From contig NZ_AP025696.1 of the NCBI RefSeq assembly GCF_027943725.1, forward strand, positions 907,501 to 971,500: DNA of 64,000 nt, given 5' to 3'. This DNA is from Nitrosophilus kaiyonis. GTDB taxonomy: Bacteria > Campylobacterota > Campylobacteria > Campylobacterales > Nitratiruptoraceae. Below, one piece after another: positions 3,318-60,681 of this stretch; position 1 is the first letter of the stretch, and every line of letters starts with the position of its first letter. The position numbers and the translations under genes were made by a program. The notes under the pieces are model-generated. The model had not been told where the DNA came from. It saw only the letters and a program-made list of their open reading frames with translations, and ran no database searches.

Positions 3318-3333
3318 AACCTTCCTTTATTTG

Positions 3334-3539
3334 GATATTGGACATGAGATATTAGGAATTAGGAATTGGGAATTAGTGTTAGTGTAAGTTATTTTACTAA
3401 CACTATTCACTATTACTAAACCCTTCATTCCTTCGCTGCTTCACAACTTTTCCGCTTCACACCTTCATAGCTTTTTACCAATAACTAATAACCAATATAC
3501 CAATTACCAATCTCTAATGTCAAATGTCTAATAATCCAA
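3334..3539. repeat. heptad-repeat island between murG and ftsW
   Basis: A degenerate 7-bp-periodic tract with several flavours: ATTAGGA/ATTGGGA units on the left, CTTCACA/CCTTCAT units in the middle and TAACCAA/CTAATGT units on the right. The centre near 3380-3405 has an inverted pair GTGTTAGT / ACTAACAC. The middle section is recognisably paralogous to the island at 32068-32192. It occupies the whole murG-ftsW gap and contains no gene. Confidence 0.85.
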
Positions 3540-6568: not shown

Positions 6569-6614
6569 TATAAAGAGGTATAACGGGATAGTGGAATAGG
6601 AGATAAGGGGGTAA
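6569..6614. repeat. heptad-repeat tract after ftsI (GGATAGT flavour)
   Basis: Purine-rich 7-bp-spaced units (AGGTATA, ACGGGAT, AGTGGAA, TAGGAGA) fill the space between the ftsI stop and the family B element. Confidence 0.7.
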
Positions 6615-6791
6615 GTGAGCGAGGGCAAAGCGAAGCTTTAAGACAACAACTGCTTGTTGTCTGTGCCCGAGCGAAAGCCTTGAGTATATGTGAGTCCGAA
6701 AAACAAGGTTTTTCGTGACGAACATACGAGAGGTTGGTTTACCTTGAAGAAAATCAAATGAGCAAAGTGAATGAAGATTTTCGGTTAAATT
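6615..6791 (+). repeat. structured repeat family B, copy 1
   Basis: A non-coding multi-hairpin element in the ftsI-alaS gap. Hairpins in order: AAAGC-GAA-GCTTT (6627-6639); AGACAACAA-CTGC-TTGTTGTCT (6641-6662); a long stem with AGCCT/AGGTT outside, GTA(TA)TGT/ACATAC inside and CGAAAAAC-AAG-GTTTTTCG at the tip (6676-6735); then TTTACC-ttgaa-GAAAATC paired with GATTTTC-GGTTAA (6738-6788). An outer GGGCA/TGCCC encloses the first two. Copy 2 at 37188-37394 keeps the layout and loops with compensating stem changes. The strand shown is the one in which G-U pairs fit. Confidence 0.85.
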
Positions 6792-6895
6792 TGAGGGTGA
6801 AGGTTGAAGGGAGAAGGTAGAAGGGGATAAAGGAAGTGGCTAATTCCCAATTCCTAATGACTAATGACTAATGTCCAATGACCAATGTCTAATCT
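6792..6895. repeat. heptad-repeat island upstream of alaS
   Basis: Two flavours in succession: GAAGGTT/GAAGGGA units, then AATTCCC, AATTCCT, AATGACT, AATGTCC in strict 7-bp register up to about 6895. A possible promoter (TTAAAAT, 6903-6909) and the alaS ribosome site GAGGAA follow. Confidence 0.85.
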
Positions 6896-6936
6896 CATTT
6901 ATGTTAAAATTAGCAAAAAAATATTAAGAGGAATTT

Positions 6937-21086: not shown

Positions 21087-21283
21087 GAATGCTCTGAAAA
21101 ATTATCAAATTTTACTCAAACAAGTTGAAATTTTTAGTAAACTAACGCTTGAAAATTTTATTAAAAAGTGCAAACGCAAGCGCCCTAAAAGGGTAAATGC
21201 ACTTTTTTGGCCTAAAGGCCAACATAAAATTTTCATACTAAAATTTCAAAGTTTTCGTTCAATTTGTAATTTTTCAGAGGTCT
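21087..21283. repeat. near-palindromic dispersed repeat family A, copy 1 (197 bp)
   Basis: Identical in length to the copy at 39583-39779, with four base differences. Imperfect terminal inverted repeats begin CTCTGAAAAATTA at the left and, on the other strand, at the right. Inside are a stem AAAAAGTGCA/TGCACTTTTT (21163-21207) enclosing CCCT-AAA-AGGG, and TTGGCC-TAAA-GGCCAA (21207-21222). It encodes no recognisable protein although one frame is open throughout. MITE-like. It is flanked on both sides by heptad tracts. Confidence 0.88.
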
Positions 21284-21352
21284 TAATGTCTAATTTCCAA
21301 TTACCAATGCCTAATGACTAATTACAAATTACTAATGTCCAATGACTAATTT
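21284..21352. repeat. heptad-repeat tract right of family A copy 1
   Basis: TAATGTC, TAATTTC, CAATTAC, CAATGCC, TAATGAC, TAATTAC, AAATTAC, TAATGTC, CAATGAC, TAATTT: near-perfect 7-bp register before the next gene's ribosome site. Confidence 0.88.
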
Positions 21353-21366
21353 AAAAAAGGAAAATT

Positions 21367-22236
21367 ATGAATATGAAGCCAGATTGTCTGGTATGTCTTT
21401 TTAATCAGACTTTAAGAGTTACAAAAGCTCTTAATTTAGATGACGAAAGTGCTAAAAAAGTTTTAGATGAAGCTGCTATTACTATTTCAAAATTTTCTCT
21501 AAATATGACACCACCCGAGGCTGCTGCTATTTTATATCCTCAAATTTCAAAAATAGTAAAAAAAGATGATGTTTATGAAGAAAAAAAGATAGAGTCTACC
21601 AATAAAGCTTTAAAATTATTAGATATTGTAGTAGAGAAAGTAAATAGTTTAAAAGATGATATAGATGGGGCTTTGAGAGCTGCAGTATTAGGAAATATTA
21701 TAGATTTTGCAACACAAGTAATGTTTGATATCGAAAAAGAGATTGATACAATATTTAAAGCAAAATTTGCAATTGATGATAAAGAGAGTTTTAAAAAGAA
21801 ACTAAAAGAATCAAAAAAAGTTGTTGTCATAGGTGATAATGTGGGTGAGCATGTTTTTGATAAATTTATGATGGAAATATTTTTTGATTTTAATCCAAAA
21901 ATAGATATATTTTATATTACAAGAGGAAAACCTATTATAAATGATGTAACAGCAAAAGATGCTAAGGCAATAGATATAGATAAAATTGCGCAAATAGTTG
22001 ATAGTGGAGTAGATACTCCAGGTTTTATATATAACAAAGCTAATGATTATACAAAAAAAATTTTTGATGAAGCTGATCTTATATTAGCAAAAGGCATGGG
22101 AAATTATGAGTGTATGGAAGAGTTAAAAGATGATAGGATATTTTTTCTATTTAAAGTAAAATGTTCAGTAGTAGCTAATAAAATTGGAAAAAATATTGGA
22201 GATTTAATTTGTATGAATAGTAGAGTTAAGAGTTAA
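21367..22236 (+). CDS. DUF89 family damage-control phosphatase-like protein
   Basis: 289 residues of the DUF89/ARMT1 metal-dependent phosphatase family, proposed to remove damaged sugar-phosphate or cofactor intermediates. The N-terminal PDCLVC CxxC marks the prokaryotic subgroup. Metal/active-site segments are IGDNVGEHVFDKFMM, ITRGKPIINDVTAKDA and DLILAKGMGNYECM. The substrate is unknown. The last codons (SRVKS and stop) are made of heptad-repeat sequence, so the natural C-terminus may have been altered. AAAAGGA precedes the ATG. Confidence 0.85.
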   Translation: MNMKPDCLVCLFNQTLRVTKALNLDDESAKKVLDEAAITISKFSLNMTPPEAAAILYPQISKIVKKDDVYEEKKIESTNKALKLLDIVVEKVNSLKDDIDGALRAAVLGNIIDFATQVMFDIEKEIDTIFKAKFAIDDKESFKKKLKESKKVVVIGDNVGEHVFDKFMMEIFFDFNPKIDIFYITRGKPIINDVTAKDAKAIDIDKIAQIVDSGVDTPGFIYNKANDYTKKIFDEADLILAKGMGNYECMEELKDDRIFFLFKVKCSVVANKIGKNIGDLICMNSRVKS

Positions 22237-22315
22237 GTGCTAAGAGTTAAGAGAAATAATAATTATAAAAGTTTTAACTTAATGCTTAATTCTTAACGCT
22301 TAATTCTTAATACTA
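22222..22315. repeat. heptad-repeat hairpin island (TTAAGAG flavour)
   Basis: The left arm 22226-22251 and right arm 22285-22310 (26 nt each) are complementary with one mismatch when G-U pairs are allowed, around a 33-nt loop. Both arms are heptads (AGAGTTA / CTTAATT). The DUF89 stop codon lies in the left arm. Confidence 0.85.
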
Positions 22316-22328
22316 AAAAGGAGGTAAA

Positions 22329-24346: not shown

Positions 24347-25066
24347 ATGAAACAATATATTAAGCAGCTTGTTGAACTATCAAAAGTTGATAAAGAGATT
24401 GACTCATTTGAGCCAAAAATAATTGAGGTAAAAAGTAGACTTGAAAATGTTGAAAAAGAGAAAAATATTATAGAAGAGTCAATCAATGCTTTAAATGAAG
24501 AGATTCAAGAGTGTGAATTAAAGAAAAGAAAAAATGAACTTCATCTAAAAGAGTTATCAGATAAGTTGGATGAACTATCTAAAAAAAGTGCAAATGTTAA
24601 AACAGAAAAAGAGGCTAAAGCTATACAATTAGAAGAAGAGATTGCTAAAGAGCAGATAAATTTTGCCAATGAAGAGGTAGCAAGACTTGAAAATAGTTGT
24701 GAGACAAAGCTTGAAGAGAAAGCATCTTTAGAAGAGAGATTAAAAGAGGTTGAGGCAAGACTTGAAAAAACAAAAGAGGCAGTTGAAAATGAGTTAAAAG
24801 AGATTGAAGAGGAGAGAAAAAAAGTTTTTGAGAAAAAGCAAGAACTTATCTCAAAAATTCCTCAAAAAATTTTAGCATTTTATGAAAAAATAAGAAGATG
24901 GGCTAAAAATAGTGCTGTAGTTCCTGTTAAAAAACATGCTTGTATGGGCTGCTATATGAAAATTAACGATAAAACCTTTTCAAAAGTTATAAAAGGTGAA
25001 GAGATAGTTACATGTCCTCATTGTGGAAGAATTTTGTATCTTGAAGAAGAGGAAGAGACAGTTTAG
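24347..25066 (+). CDS. coiled-coil C4 zinc-ribbon protein (HP0958-like)
   Basis: 239 residues: a long antiparallel coiled coil (about residues 5-175) and a C-terminal zinc ribbon, CMGCYMKI and CPHCGRIL. The H. pylori homologue HP0958 stabilises sigma-54 and affects flagellin mRNA, so a role in flagellar gene expression is plausible. It sits between nif3 and waaA as in H. pylori and C. jejuni. The sequence is very rich in Glu and Lys. Confidence 0.88.
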   Translation: MKQYIKQLVELSKVDKEIDSFEPKIIEVKSRLENVEKEKNIIEESINALNEEIQECELKKRKNELHLKELSDKLDELSKKSANVKTEKEAKAIQLEEEIAKEQINFANEEVARLENSCETKLEEKASLEERLKEVEARLEKTKEAVENELKEIEEERKKVFEKKQELISKIPQKILAFYEKIRRWAKNSAVVPVKKHACMGCYMKINDKTFSKVIKGEEIVTCPHCGRILYLEEEEETV

Positions 25067-25185
25067 TATTTAGTCATTAGACATTAGACATTAGTCATTA
25101 GTAATTGGTGTTAAATAAAAGTTTTGAATTTATTATTAATTACTACTAATGACTTAATGACTAATGACCATTGACTAATGTCAAG
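25066..25185. repeat. heptad-repeat hairpin island before waaA
   Basis: Left arm ATTAGTC/ATTAGAC units and right arm CTAATGA/CCATTGA units, opposed around an AT-rich centre (about 25110-25135). It begins directly at the stop of the upstream gene. Confidence 0.85.
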
Positions 25186-28770: not shown

Positions 28771-28855
28771 AATTAGAGCTAAGAGTTAAGAGCTAAGAAT
28801 TAAGCATAGATAATAATATTTTATTTCTTAGCTCTTAATTCTTAATACTTAAATC
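28771..28855. repeat. heptad-repeat hairpin between ffh and rpsP
   Basis: A 14-bp perfect stem, TTAAGAGCTAAGAA (28786-28799) with TTCTTAGCTCTTAA (28825-28838), built from opposed AGAGCTA and CTTAATT heptads. It may act as a processing or attenuation hairpin inside the operon; no clean U tract follows. Confidence 0.85.
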
Positions 28856-28873
28856 TAAAAAGGAGAAAAACAT

Positions 28874-32954: not shown

Positions 32955-33168
32955 CCTTTGTGTTAGGGATTAGACATTAGACATTAGTAATTAGGAATTA
33001 GTGTTAAGTATTAAGAGTTAAGTGCTAAGATTTAAATGTTAAGTTTTTCAATTATCACTAAATTCTATTTACTTAGTTCTTAAATCTTAATTCTTAACTC
33101 CCACCTTACTCAACTATTCCATTATTCCTATATGCCCCTATTCCACTAATCCACTTTAAGTTCCTAAC
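32955..33168. repeat. heptad-repeat island between truB and ispE
   Basis: A 214-bp island with ATTAGAC, TTAAGAG, CTTAAAT and ATTCCAC/CTATTCC flavours, left and right arms opposed around about 33040-33065. In C. jejuni csrA occupies this slot, as I recall; I see no csrA here. Confidence 0.82.
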
Positions 33169-37187: not shown

Positions 37188-37394
37188 GCAAATCAAGCGA
37201 GTAAAACAAGCGAAGATTTGCAGTTAATAAAGCCGAAGGCTTTTAGAAAGCCAACTGCTTGGCTTTCGTATCTTTGTGAAAGCTTACTGTATATGCGAGC
37301 TCAAAACTAAGAAGTTTTGTATGTGAGCATACTGTAAGCTAATTGACCTTGAAGCAAATCGTAATGAGTAAAGCGAATTAGATTTGCGGTTAAA
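37188..37394 (+). repeat. structured repeat family B, copy 2
   Basis: Begins at the LysR stop. Order: a first terminal hairpin GCAAATC/GATTTGC followed by AGTTAA (37190-37227); AAAGCC-GAA-GGCTTT (37229-37243); GAAAGCCAA-CTGC-TTGGCTTTC (37246-37267); a long stem AGCTTAC/GTAAGCT, GTA(TA)TGC/GCATAC and CAAAACT-AAGA-AGTTTTG (37281-37340); then TTGACC-ttgaa-GCAAATC paired with GATTTGC-GGTTAA (37343-37393). The loops GAA, CTGC and the ttgaa bulge are identical to copy 1 while stems differ by paired changes. Confidence 0.87.
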
Positions 37395-37487
37395 TTAGTG
37401 GAATAAGGCATAGCTAGATAGTGGAGAAGCTGTAAAGAAGCTAATTCCTAATTCCCAATTACTAATTACTAATGTCCAATGACTAAT
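37395..37487. repeat. heptad-repeat island after family B copy 2
   Basis: GGAATAA/AGATAGT-type units, then AATTCCT, AATTCCC, AATTACT, AATTACT, AATGTCC, AATGACT in strict register up to the end of the convergent gene. Confidence 0.85.
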
Positions 37488-39582: not shown

Positions 39583-39779
39583 GAATGCTCTGAAAAATTA
39601 TCAAATTTTACTCAAACAAGTTGAAATTTTTAGTAAACTAACGCTTGAAAATTTTATTAAAAAGTGCAAACGCAAGCGCCCTAAAAGGGTAAATGCACTT
39701 TTTTGGCCTAAAGGGCAACATAAAATTTTCAAACTAAAATTTCAAAGTTTTCGTTCAATTCATAATTTTTCAGAGGTCT
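39583..39779. repeat. near-palindromic dispersed repeat family A, copy 2 (197 bp)
   Basis: Same length as copy 1 (21087-21283) with four substitutions: GGCC to GGGC in one hairpin (now one mismatch), one T/A change, and a two-base TG to CA change near the right end. The CA version restores longer terminal symmetry (CTCTGAAAAATTAT at both ends). Its open frame shows one silent and two replacement changes, giving no sign of protein-level selection. Confidence 0.88.
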
Positions 39780-43018: not shown

Positions 43019-43989
43019 TGGAGTTTTTTAAAACAGATAAAACTTATAATTTTATGGGTAAAAGTAAAATATTTATCTCATTTTCACTGCTTTTAATTGC
43101 TATTAGTTATGTTTTGCTTTTTACAAAAGGGCTTAATTTTGGTATAGATTTTACTGGTGGAACTATAATACAGGTAAAGTATGATAAAAAAGTTGCAATC
43201 AAGCCAATAAGAGAAGCCCTTAAAAAAAGTGAAGTTTTTAAAGATGCTGCAGTTACATATTTTGGAAGTGATCAAGAGATAATCATAAGAGTAAAAACAT
43301 CTACAAAAAAACTGACTTCAGATATTGGAGATGAGGCAAGAAAGGTTTTAAAAGGTACTGGAAATTTTGAAATAAGAAGAGTAGATATTGTTGGACCAAA
43401 GGTTGGAGGAGAACTAAGAGAAAAAGGGATAATGGCTACAGTTATTGCCATTATTGGTATTTTAATATATGTATCTTTTAGATTTGAGTGGCGCTTTGCT
43501 TTGGCTTCGGTATTGGCTCTTGTTCATGATGTAAGCATTGCAATGGGAGCTATAAGTCTATTTAATGTGCCTGTTAATTTAGATATATTAGCAGCAATTT
43601 TAACAATTCTTGGATACTCTTTAAATGATACAATAATTGTATTTGACAGGATTAGGGAAGGTATTGTTGAAGCAAAAACAGATAATTTAAATGAAGTAAT
43701 AAATGAATCAATCACAAAAACTCTATCAAGAACAACACTTACTTCACTTACAACATTTTTTGTTGTTTTAACTCTTTACCTATTTGGTGGTGAAATTATA
43801 AGAGGGTTTAGTTTTACACTTCTTGTTGGCATCATTGTTGGTACATACAGCTCTATTTTTGTAGCATCTCCGCTTCTTGGATGGCTTGGATTTAATCTTA
43901 AAAAATATAGAGAAAAACTTGCTCAAAAGAAAAAAAGAGAACAAGAGAAAGAGAGAATGAGAGCAATGTATGAGGGTGGAGTTGTTTAA
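43018..43989 (+). CDS. secF: protein translocase subunit SecF
   Basis: Partner of SecD. 323 residues: GLNFGIDFTGGTIIQVKY after helix 1, periplasmic domain, then helices with GYSLNDTIIVFDRIREG and SRTTLTSLTTFFVVL. A basic tail (KKREQEKERMRAMYEGG) ends the protein. A heptad island separates it from leuS. Confidence 0.97.
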   Translation: MEFFKTDKTYNFMGKSKIFISFSLLLIAISYVLLFTKGLNFGIDFTGGTIIQVKYDKKVAIKPIREALKKSEVFKDAAVTYFGSDQEIIIRVKTSTKKLTSDIGDEARKVLKGTGNFEIRRVDIVGPKVGGELREKGIMATVIAIIGILIYVSFRFEWRFALASVLALVHDVSIAMGAISLFNVPVNLDILAAILTILGYSLNDTIIVFDRIREGIVEAKTDNLNEVINESITKTLSRTTLTSLTTFFVVLTLYLFGGEIIRGFSFTLLVGIIVGTYSSIFVASPLLGWLGFNLKKYREKLAQKKKREQEKERMRAMYEGGVV

Positions 43990-44077
43990 TAGTTGATAGT
44001 CTATAGTCTTCAGTCTTTAGAATTTAATTAAAAACTTTTAACTACCGACTATCGACTACTGACTAACGACTAAAAAA
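43990..44077. repeat. heptad-repeat hairpin island between secF and leuS
   Basis: The left arm (AGTCTAT, AGTCTTC, AGTCTTT) and right arm (GACTATC, GACTACT, GACTAAC, GACTAAA) are opposed around AATTTAATTAAAAAC. Confidence 0.85.
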
Positions 44078-57397: not shown

Positions 57398-59676
<2,279 letters not shown>

Positions 59677-59708
59677 TTTCTAGTTTTTAGCAAATGAGAA
59701 GGGAATAA

Positions 59709-60071
59709 ATGACAGGATATGAAAAATTAAATGTATGGCAAAAAAGTATGGAATTAGTAACAGAAATTTATAAATTAGTTAAGAAATTTCCAAAAGAAGA
59801 AATGTTTGCTTTATCAGATCAAATTAGAAGAAGCGCAGTTTCTATTCCAAGTAATATAGCAAAGGGAAGTTCACGAAATTCAAAAAAAGAGTTTATCCAA
59901 TTTTTATATATTTCATTAGGAAGTATATGTGAATTAGAAACACAATTAAAAATTAATGAGAATGTAGGATATTTAAATAGTTTAAATGAATTGTTTAATA
60001 AAACAGAAAAAATTAAAAAGATGATAAATGCTTTAATAACTTCCTTAAAAAAAGATTTGAAAAATGACTAA
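59709..60071 (+). CDS. four-helix bundle protein (S23 / IVP family)
   Basis: 120 residues of the family first found as proteins encoded by intervening sequences in 23S r[71 protein letters not shown]. These pentameric four-helix bundles have unknown function. Here it is wedged between two sugar-nucleotide genes, overlapping wlbB by 8 bp, which suggests insertion into a formerly continuous wlbA-wlbB pair. Confidence 0.9.
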
Positions 60072-60681
60072 TAATCAGAAACCAAAAACCAAAAACCAAA
60101 AACCAAAAACCAAAAACTATTTCGTTCACGAAAGCTCATATGTTGATGATAATGTTCAAATAGGCGAAAATACAAAAATATGGCATTTTTGCCATATTTT
60201 ATCTAATACTATAATTGGTAAAAATTGCTCTTTTGGACAAAATTGTGTAGTAGGGCCAAATGTAAAAATAGGAAATAATGTAAAGGTGCAAAATAATATA
60301 TCTATATATGATGGAGTTGAAATAGAAGATGATATATTTTTAGGACCATCAATGGTTTTTACAAATGTAATAAATCCAAGGGCATTTATAAATAGAAAGA
60401 GTGAATTTAAAAAGACTTTATTAAAAAAAGGCTGTTCAATTGGAGCAAATGCAACAATTGTATGTGGAATCACTATTGGAGAGTATGCACTGATTGGAGC
60501 CGGGGCGGTAGTGAATAAAGATGTCAAGCCTTACGCGCTAATGGTAGGAGTGCCGGCAAGACAGATTGGTTGGGTTGATAAAGCCGGAAATAAAATGATA
60601 TTTGATAAAAATGGAATTGCAGTTGATAGTTATGATGACACTAAATATATTTTAATAGATGATGAAATAAAAATTTTATAA
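60064..60681 (+). CDS. wlbB: UDP-2-acetamido-3-amino-glucuronate N-acetyltransferase, WlbB/WbpD-like
   Basis: A left-handed beta-helix acetyltransferase that N-acetylates the 3-amino group. 205 residues with hexapeptide repeats: [75 protein letters not shown] and [14 protein letters not shown]. The only start in frame, ATG 60064, forces translation through a heptad tract giving [16 protein letters not shown] ahead of [10 protein letters not shown] stretch near 60497-60560 is markedly richer in GC codons than its surroundings. Confidence 0.9.
60076..60117. repeat. heptad tract in the wlbB 5' coding end (CCAAAAA flavour)
   Basis: About six near-exact CCAAAAA units immediately after the start codon region, translated as [14 protein letters not shown]: the 7-bp unit gives a 7-residue peptide repeat (QKPKTKN). 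Confidence 0.92.

Follow-up and report, generated by a model that had tools for sequence, protein, structure and literature searches.

The gap between ftsW and murG raises the question of what the degenerate 7-bp repeats that occupy it are, and how they came to lie between two protein genes. The gap belongs to a 64,000-nucleotide stretch (the window) that corresponds to bases 907501–971500 of a genome, G000, consisting of one contig of 1,769,550 bp with 28.9% GC. A sequence-only reading of the window had claimed that such repeats, with a constant period of 7 and varying units, fill most of the longer intergenic gaps. We called genes in G000 with a simple codon-usage script (1737 genes, borders approximate) and compared the self-match of 678 gaps (116 kb) from the whole genome with that of dinucleotide shuffles. 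At lag 7, it was 0.359 versus 0.310 in shuffles (z 39.6), so the heptad tracts are real and go far beyond composition; the outcome that would have refuted the sequence-only reading, no lag-7 excess over shuffled gaps, did not occur. The excess at lag 8 was nearly as strong (0.343, z 33.5), lags 6 and 9 were weak (z 6–7), and lags 14 and 21 followed as multiples. The lag-7 excess was absent from the coding DNA of G000. Thus, the variation of units under a nearly fixed period was borne out, but a constant period of 7 had to be rejected, the period being either 7 or 8.

At a tract score of at least 14, G000 contained 194 period-7 tracts (163 intergenic), 89 period-8 tracts (71 intergenic) and 20 period-6 tracts. 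Tracts of period 7 or 8 were present in 5% of gaps of 30–60 bp, 12% of gaps of 60–100 bp, 40% of gaps of 100–150 bp, 65% of gaps of 150–250 bp and 54% of gaps of 250–500 bp, compared with 0.5–3.3% of shuffled gaps across size classes (3% at 150–250 bp). The claim that they fill most longer gaps is therefore roughly correct. No known RNA family matched the tracts of the window at Rfam gathering scores.

Reading of whole G000 gaps revealed two properties that the sequence-only reading had missed, inverted pairing and fixed polarity. The left array is G-rich and C-poor on the plus strand (27.6% G and 4.8% C in G-type arms), and the right array is its mirror image. Among neighbouring arrays of the whole genome, a G-type array was followed by a C-type array 119 times and a C-type by a G-type array 4 times, and this order held in every gap class; it rules out free-standing direct arrays. 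A first count by gap half had indicated no polarity in divergent gaps, but it was overturned by counting neighbouring tracts there (13 G-to-C, 1 C-to-G). The likeness of left and right arms within a G000 gap was modestly higher than over permuted gaps (0.265 versus 0.203, sd 0.017), and in some gaps a heptad (7 bp) arm stands opposite an octad (8 bp) arm. Short loops were the commonest, and several gaps folded as RNA hairpins far beyond shuffles (z −2.6 to −5.9).

The ftsW–murG gap has this layout. Its left G-type arm (3331–3374; units TTGGATA, TTGGACA, TGAGATA, TTAGGAA, TTAGGAA and TTGGGAA) is paired to the C-type arm when 3318–3539 is folded. The right C-type arm (3477–3532; ACCAATA, ACTAATA ... 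GTCAAAT, GTCTAAT) was identified from sequence, tract call and fold. An inner hairpin at 3377–3420 (GTGTTAGTGT ... ACTAACACTA), recognized by sequence and RNA fold, and octad-like CTTCACNG units at about 3427–3470 lie in the same gap. In 101 ftsW–murG junctions of Campylobacterota, the two genes mostly overlap or have just a few bases between them, an unrelated gene is present at four junctions, and arms are found only in G000 (222 bp) and in genome G003 (76 bp, different units).

Further ORF-less hairpins of the window are located at 22222–22317 (unit TTAAGNN; tract call, fold z −4.9), 25062–25184 (ATTAGNN; z −5.9), 28775–28860 (TTAAGNN; z −5.7) and 43986–44073 (TAGTNNA; tract call, z −4.4). 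The last of these folds into successive 5-bp stems with small internal loops between them, in keeping with the appearance of the units as “five conserved plus two variable”. The orthologous gaps of G003 hold a hairpin with unit AATTAGG in place of the one at 25062–25184 and GAGTAAG-type arms in place of those at 28775–28860; at a composite hairpin (32963–33155), G003 has no gap, its genes overlapping by 13 bp. Adjoining G-type (GAAGGNN) and C-type (TAATNNC) arrays were called at 6794–6896, upstream of an alaS-like gene.

Two dispersed elements were seen beside the tracts. A palindromic element of ~180 bp (GAATGCTCTGAAAAATT ... AATTTTTCAGAGGTCT; 21108–21290 and about 39604–39779 in the window) has 7 copies of at least 100 bp in G000, usually adjoining heptad arms. 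An element of ~220 bp (6570–6790, with a diverged relative at 37188–37400) has about 29 copies of at least 100 bp, typically follows a stop codon with a heptad array to its right, and has no Rfam match. For element copies of all kinds, a heptad array lies on the right of 28 of 37, versus 18% of random intergenic windows, and the ~220-bp element may accompany the hairpins as a non-coding partner. Heptad arrays also occur in frame within a nucleotide-sugar dehydrogenase-like gene of the window (58525–58557 and 58626–58661, encoding peptides of 12 and 11 residues), and similar ones were found in an ACC-deaminase-like gene of G009 and G007 (L257, L260) and a kdsA-like gene of G005 (L263).

One pair of arms in the window encloses a gene. 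The gene at 59709–60071 (plus strand) encodes a four-helix-bundle (4HB) protein that matches PF05635 (23S_rRNA_IVP, E 1.5e-40) and TIGR02436 and, more weakly, bAvd, i.e., it belongs to the S23p/PF05635 family, the ORFs of 23S rRNA intervening sequences (IVSs). It is preceded by a G-type arm with unit TAGTTTT (59660–59690, plus strand; tract call and flank reading) and followed by a C-type arm with unit CCAAAAA (60073–60117, plus strand) that runs into the start of the next gene. G000 has five PF05635 genes, this one included, and all lie between arms; the ORF is absent from the ORF-less hairpins, that of ftsW–murG among them. The five 4HB genes compare with about 120 hairpins in the genome. 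One of the five, L216 (G000:C1:355894-356202), has an internal TGA stop, indicating that 4HB elements also decay.

Within the family, 7 of 22 genomes have PF05635 genes (21 matches), and all 21 loci adjoin such arrays when read by eye, as do most of 49 others. In a first flank set of 43 4HB loci (the 21 of the family and 22 from plasmid records, the source of all non-Campylobacterota loci), 72% were flanked by a G-type array on the upstream side and a C-type one on the downstream side, versus 0.7% of all G000 genes, a control that counts the G000 4HB genes themselves. The few other G000 genes that passed either adjoined solo tracts or had weak AT-rich matches. We also scored how well each upstream flank aligns with the reverse-complemented downstream flank. 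The mean was 18.4 for matched flanks of the 43 loci versus 9.05 (sd 0.42) for mismatched copies; for 27 further Campylobacterota loci, analysed as a separate set, it was 17.7 versus 9.0 (sd 0.69). Random genes from G000 and G003, whose two flanks are alike in base composition, score 9.8 and 9.4, so composition is not the cause of the complementarity. Overall, 70 loci from five phyla scored 18.1 versus 9.8 for random genes. As can be seen from these scores and from the folds, 4HB genes in several phyla are specifically linked to complementary, stem-forming ends; the window copy pairs in part only, its whole transcript folding no better than shuffles (z −0.67). Clear inverted arms are missing at no fewer than three plasmid loci: the arrays of L247 and L291 point in the same direction, and at L286 the upstream side lacks a clear G-type array.

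The sites of these genes deserve mention. On cyanobacterial plasmids, armed 4HB genes L244, L247 and L250 lie within CRISPR-Cas operons (cas6/cas4, cas10/cmr3), where they are easily mistaken for Cas accessory genes. The window element (L212) and L293, L295, L299 and L306, from several families and with different arm units, occupy one common junction of an apparent surface-sugar operon, between the ...HPFC end of an oxidoreductase and the acyltransferase that follows.

The distribution of heptads across genomes follows that of 4HB genes in large part. The pattern ATTRGNNATTRGNNATTRG had 347, 83, 44, 40, 18, 3 and 1 matches in the seven 4HB-bearing genomes of the family and 0 to 4 matches in the 15 genomes without 4HB. 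No tracts were called in 68 kb of a same-genus genome or in 140 kb of G009; in 80 further loci from Campylobacterota, tract density was 0.26 per 100 kb, most relatives having none. A 4HB match was present in 44 of 347 Campylobacterota genomes, including all 13 genomes with ATTRGNN on both strands (at least three matches in total) and 31 of the 334 others (Fisher 4e-13, kinship ignored); this pattern captures a single unit family and is suited to AT-rich genomes. The 13 genomes represent eight genera and four families and thus are not 13 independent events. Contrasts within genera point the same way: in g8, four 4HB carriers have tracts and one non-carrier has none, and in g57, three carriers have 19, 6 and 4 matches and the non-carriers 3, 0, 0 and 0. 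Some 4HB carriers lack any pattern match, and a few heptads do occur in genomes without a 4HB match (G006, G007, G009 and G243). Long perfect ATTAGTG/ATTAGCG/ATTAGGG arrays, on one strand and at a single locus, occur in G071, G100, G292 and G359 (family f14, no 4HB); they look different in kind from paired arms.

Comparison of G000 with 400 kb of G003 sequence bears on the insertion and turnover of tracts. Among 202 gene pairs adjacent in both genomes, a tract was present in G000 only at 30, in G003 only at 8 and in both at 18. The 30 G000-only gaps have a median length of 176 bp versus 81 bp in G003, and at some G000 gaps of 119–220 bp the G003 genes overlap or lie 1 bp apart; tracts thus stand opposite near-empty orthologous gaps. 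Where both genomes have a hairpin, the units often differ and the arms match within each species. Neither conserved ends nor target duplications were seen by eye in 20 G000/G003 site comparisons.

Near-identical orthologous 4HB loci (L203/L217 and L204/L213) differ by whole units. Over 71 copies, arm similarity climbed with 4HB identity, from 0.07 below 50% identity to 0.43 at 70% or above, and the trend was also present at unrelated sites that share no neighbour gene (Mantel, 0 of 2000 permutations). Arm units therefore follow the 4HB lineage: the arms are inherited with the gene, and both change together. The mobile or transferred unit is roughly the gene together with its arms.

The same arms occur in ribosomal RNA genes. 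L252, from an Azospirillum lipoferum plasmid, is a 23S rRNA gene (Rfam LSU across the whole stretch) with a 4HB gene inside, and the insert has heptad arms GAGGACGGATGACAGAGGACGGAGGACAGA and TCCGTCCTCTGTCTTCTGTCATCCGTCTTC. In G055, three 4HB copies with identical scores and flanks lie in rRNA genes, two of them confirmed by Rfam; their arms are ACAGATTACAGAATACAGATTACAG plus its inverse, and the element folds at z −7.4. Both inserts are classical 23S rRNA IVSs, and true rRNA IVSs thus bear heptad arms. Among the 4HB elements, an rRNA location was found only at L252 and G055; the copies in the window are found within protein genes or between them, with no Rfam rRNA match in the window, and hence we call them IVS-like rather than IVS. 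In the Coxiella IVS, GACAGAT heptamers whose number varies between strains precede the S23p ORF, RNase III makes its 5′ cut at the first heptamer repeat, and the IVS is excised by RNase III without religation (PMC4990558). This result supports experimentally the view that heptad arms act as the RNase III stem, in rRNA.

We think it fairly probable that these tracts represent the arms of small IVS-like insertions between protein genes, mostly ORF-less, which form hairpins with the stem in RNA. The full element would consist of a G-type array, a 4HB gene and an inverted C-type array, and the common form would be a gene-less hairpin with a short loop. The arms are expected to pair in the transcript into a long stem, with the insert as the loop, and RNase III would most likely cut this stem, as published for one rRNA IVS and as we infer for protein operons; we propose that the insert would thereby do little harm to the surrounding operon or rRNA. 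With a single period common to both arms, pairing stays possible when entire units are gained or lost, which makes the stem robust to slippage and lets units change quickly without loss of period, polarity or complementarity. With one arm poor in C and the other poor in G, neither should fold on itself. As for the G-first order, a leading C-rich, G-poor arm might attract Rho, though this is a thought only. The ORF-less hairpins presumably derive from, or spread by, 4HB elements, short derivatives being the simplest view, and the 4HB protein may help the element persist or spread.

One can ask whether polymerase slippage alone would suffice, with arrays growing in tolerated gaps, the inverted partner arising via template switching at a quasi-palindrome and the 4HB genes being incidental. 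The variable unit number between near-identical copies (L203/L217, L204/L213) and the joint change of both arms are as expected from slippage and template switching, respectively, and among long simple repeats heptads rank first in abundance in many genomes, slippage having been proposed (Mrazek 2007, as reported in PMC4679880). Yet slippage gives no reason for the G-then-C polarity in every gap class or for heptads on rRNA IVSs, the flanking of 4HB genes is specific (the few other G000 genes with such flanks being the solo-tract neighbours and weak AT-rich matches), and tracts are absent, or nearly so, from the same-genus genome and most relatives. We therefore consider slippage alone unlikely. 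A mechanism acting on length, for which the sequence-only reading had argued, probably drives the unit turnover, but by itself it leaves polarity, pairing and the 4HB link unexplained. It is less probable still, and in our opinion quite improbable, that the hairpins serve the host as terminators, mRNA stabilizers or translation-control sites whose repeats bind a protein or RNase. Their location between stop and start codons, their strong RNA folds (z −2.6 to −5.9), a polarity that stops each arm from self-pairing and the translational regulation proposed for TAACTGA heptamers (MacGregor 2015) would suit such a role, but orthologous G003 gaps lack them or have unrelated units, nearly all of the 101 ftsW–murG junctions in relatives have no insert, and tracts are also found in frame inside genes and in rRNA.

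The kinship of the 4HB protein with bAvd and, below the cut-off, with DGR Avd would be accounted for if it served, like Avd, as partner to a reverse transcriptase by which hairpin RNA is copied into new sites. However, no RVT_1 (PF00078) match was found in G000 or in 6 of the 7 4HB-bearing family genomes, and reverse transcriptases of the family are mostly in 4HB-free genomes. Copying by a resident enzyme is thus unlikely in spite of this kinship, and we regard the retroelement explanation as very improbable. The least credible is selection at the DNA level for G-quadruplexes or similar structures, to which we assign hardly any probability. It is modelled on the GGGNATC heptads of Xanthomonas and Nostoc, which form quadruplexes in vitro and have the same bias, i.e., sense strand after stop and antisense before start (PMC4692102), but most G-arm units of G000 (ATTAGTC, TTAAGAG and TAGTTTT), the commonest ones included, have no GGG runs and do not provide four G-tracts of at least three, and arm pairing and the 4HB gene are left unexplained.

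IVS-like insertions with paired arms, the reading that we prefer, resemble several known systems. Small intergenic palindromes, many of them ORF-less and presumably mobilized in trans, are also typical of MITEs and REP-type sequences; in contrast, the G000 hairpins differ in units from copy to copy, and no transposase, conserved terminal (inverted repeat) sequence or target-site duplication was seen with them, the latter two judged from the by-eye G000/G003 comparison only. The DGR protein Avd belongs to a related four-helix-bundle fold family (the 4HB protein matches PF22296), but a reverse transcriptase is neither near the 4HB gene nor in G000. The STRR, LSSR and TAACTGA repeats of cyanobacteria, Beggiatoaceae and Bacteroidetes (PMC4679880) are likewise intergenic heptad arrays near start codons in scattered taxa, and like them, G000 has tandem heptamers above chance in intergenic DNA, period 8 being present too. 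These repeats are described as single-unit direct repeats, whereas G000, instead of one or a few perfect units per genome, has many degenerate unit families in paired inverted arms of fixed polarity; PMC4679880 mentions no 4HB link to heptads. The likeness to cyanobacterial heptads suggested by the sequence-only reading is real, since the 4HB-plus-heptad layout is also present on Nostoc, Calothrix and other cyanobacterial plasmids, and, in line with that reading, we found no description of heptads from Campylobacterota in the open-access literature searched. The GGGNATC heptads of Xanthomonas and Nostoc (Rehm 2015) have the same strand bias relative to stop and start and are known as inverted repeats in Xanthomonas (PMC4692102), with 70–75 inverted pairs per genome, and Xanthomonas has a 4HB protein (2GSC, XCC0516); they differ in having one G-tract unit and in being read as quadruplexes, no 4HB link being made.

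The closest relatives are the 23S rRNA IVSs of Leptospira, Coxiella and Brucella (PF05635), which have in common with the G000 elements the ORF family, the hairpin formed by the ends and the existence of ORF-less forms. Heptads flank the ORF at L252 and G055 and were published upstream of it in Coxiella. The differences are that most G000 copies lie between protein genes and that published heptamers are limited to the upstream side of the Coxiella ORF and were not generalized. The separate pieces were known before; none of the open-access papers searched was found to connect 4HB genes in general with inverted heptad arms, in protein operons and across several phyla. With rather less than even confidence, we suggest that heptad/octad hairpins and 4HB genes may constitute one widespread class of minimal selfish elements, found across phyla in rRNA and protein operons, whose ends are defined by a period and not by a sequence; much of STRR, LSSR, TAACTGA and GGGNATC might then be its ORF-less offspring and the 4HB/S23 protein a propagation or tolerance factor. 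If so, this would be a type of mobile element that escapes ordinary repeat finders, its termini being set by period, polarity and complementarity rather than sequence, and stray in-frame peptides encoded by heptads in annotated proteins would be explained. Intergenic 7-bp repeats and the IVS 4HB protein, two old oddities, would then become testable through each other.
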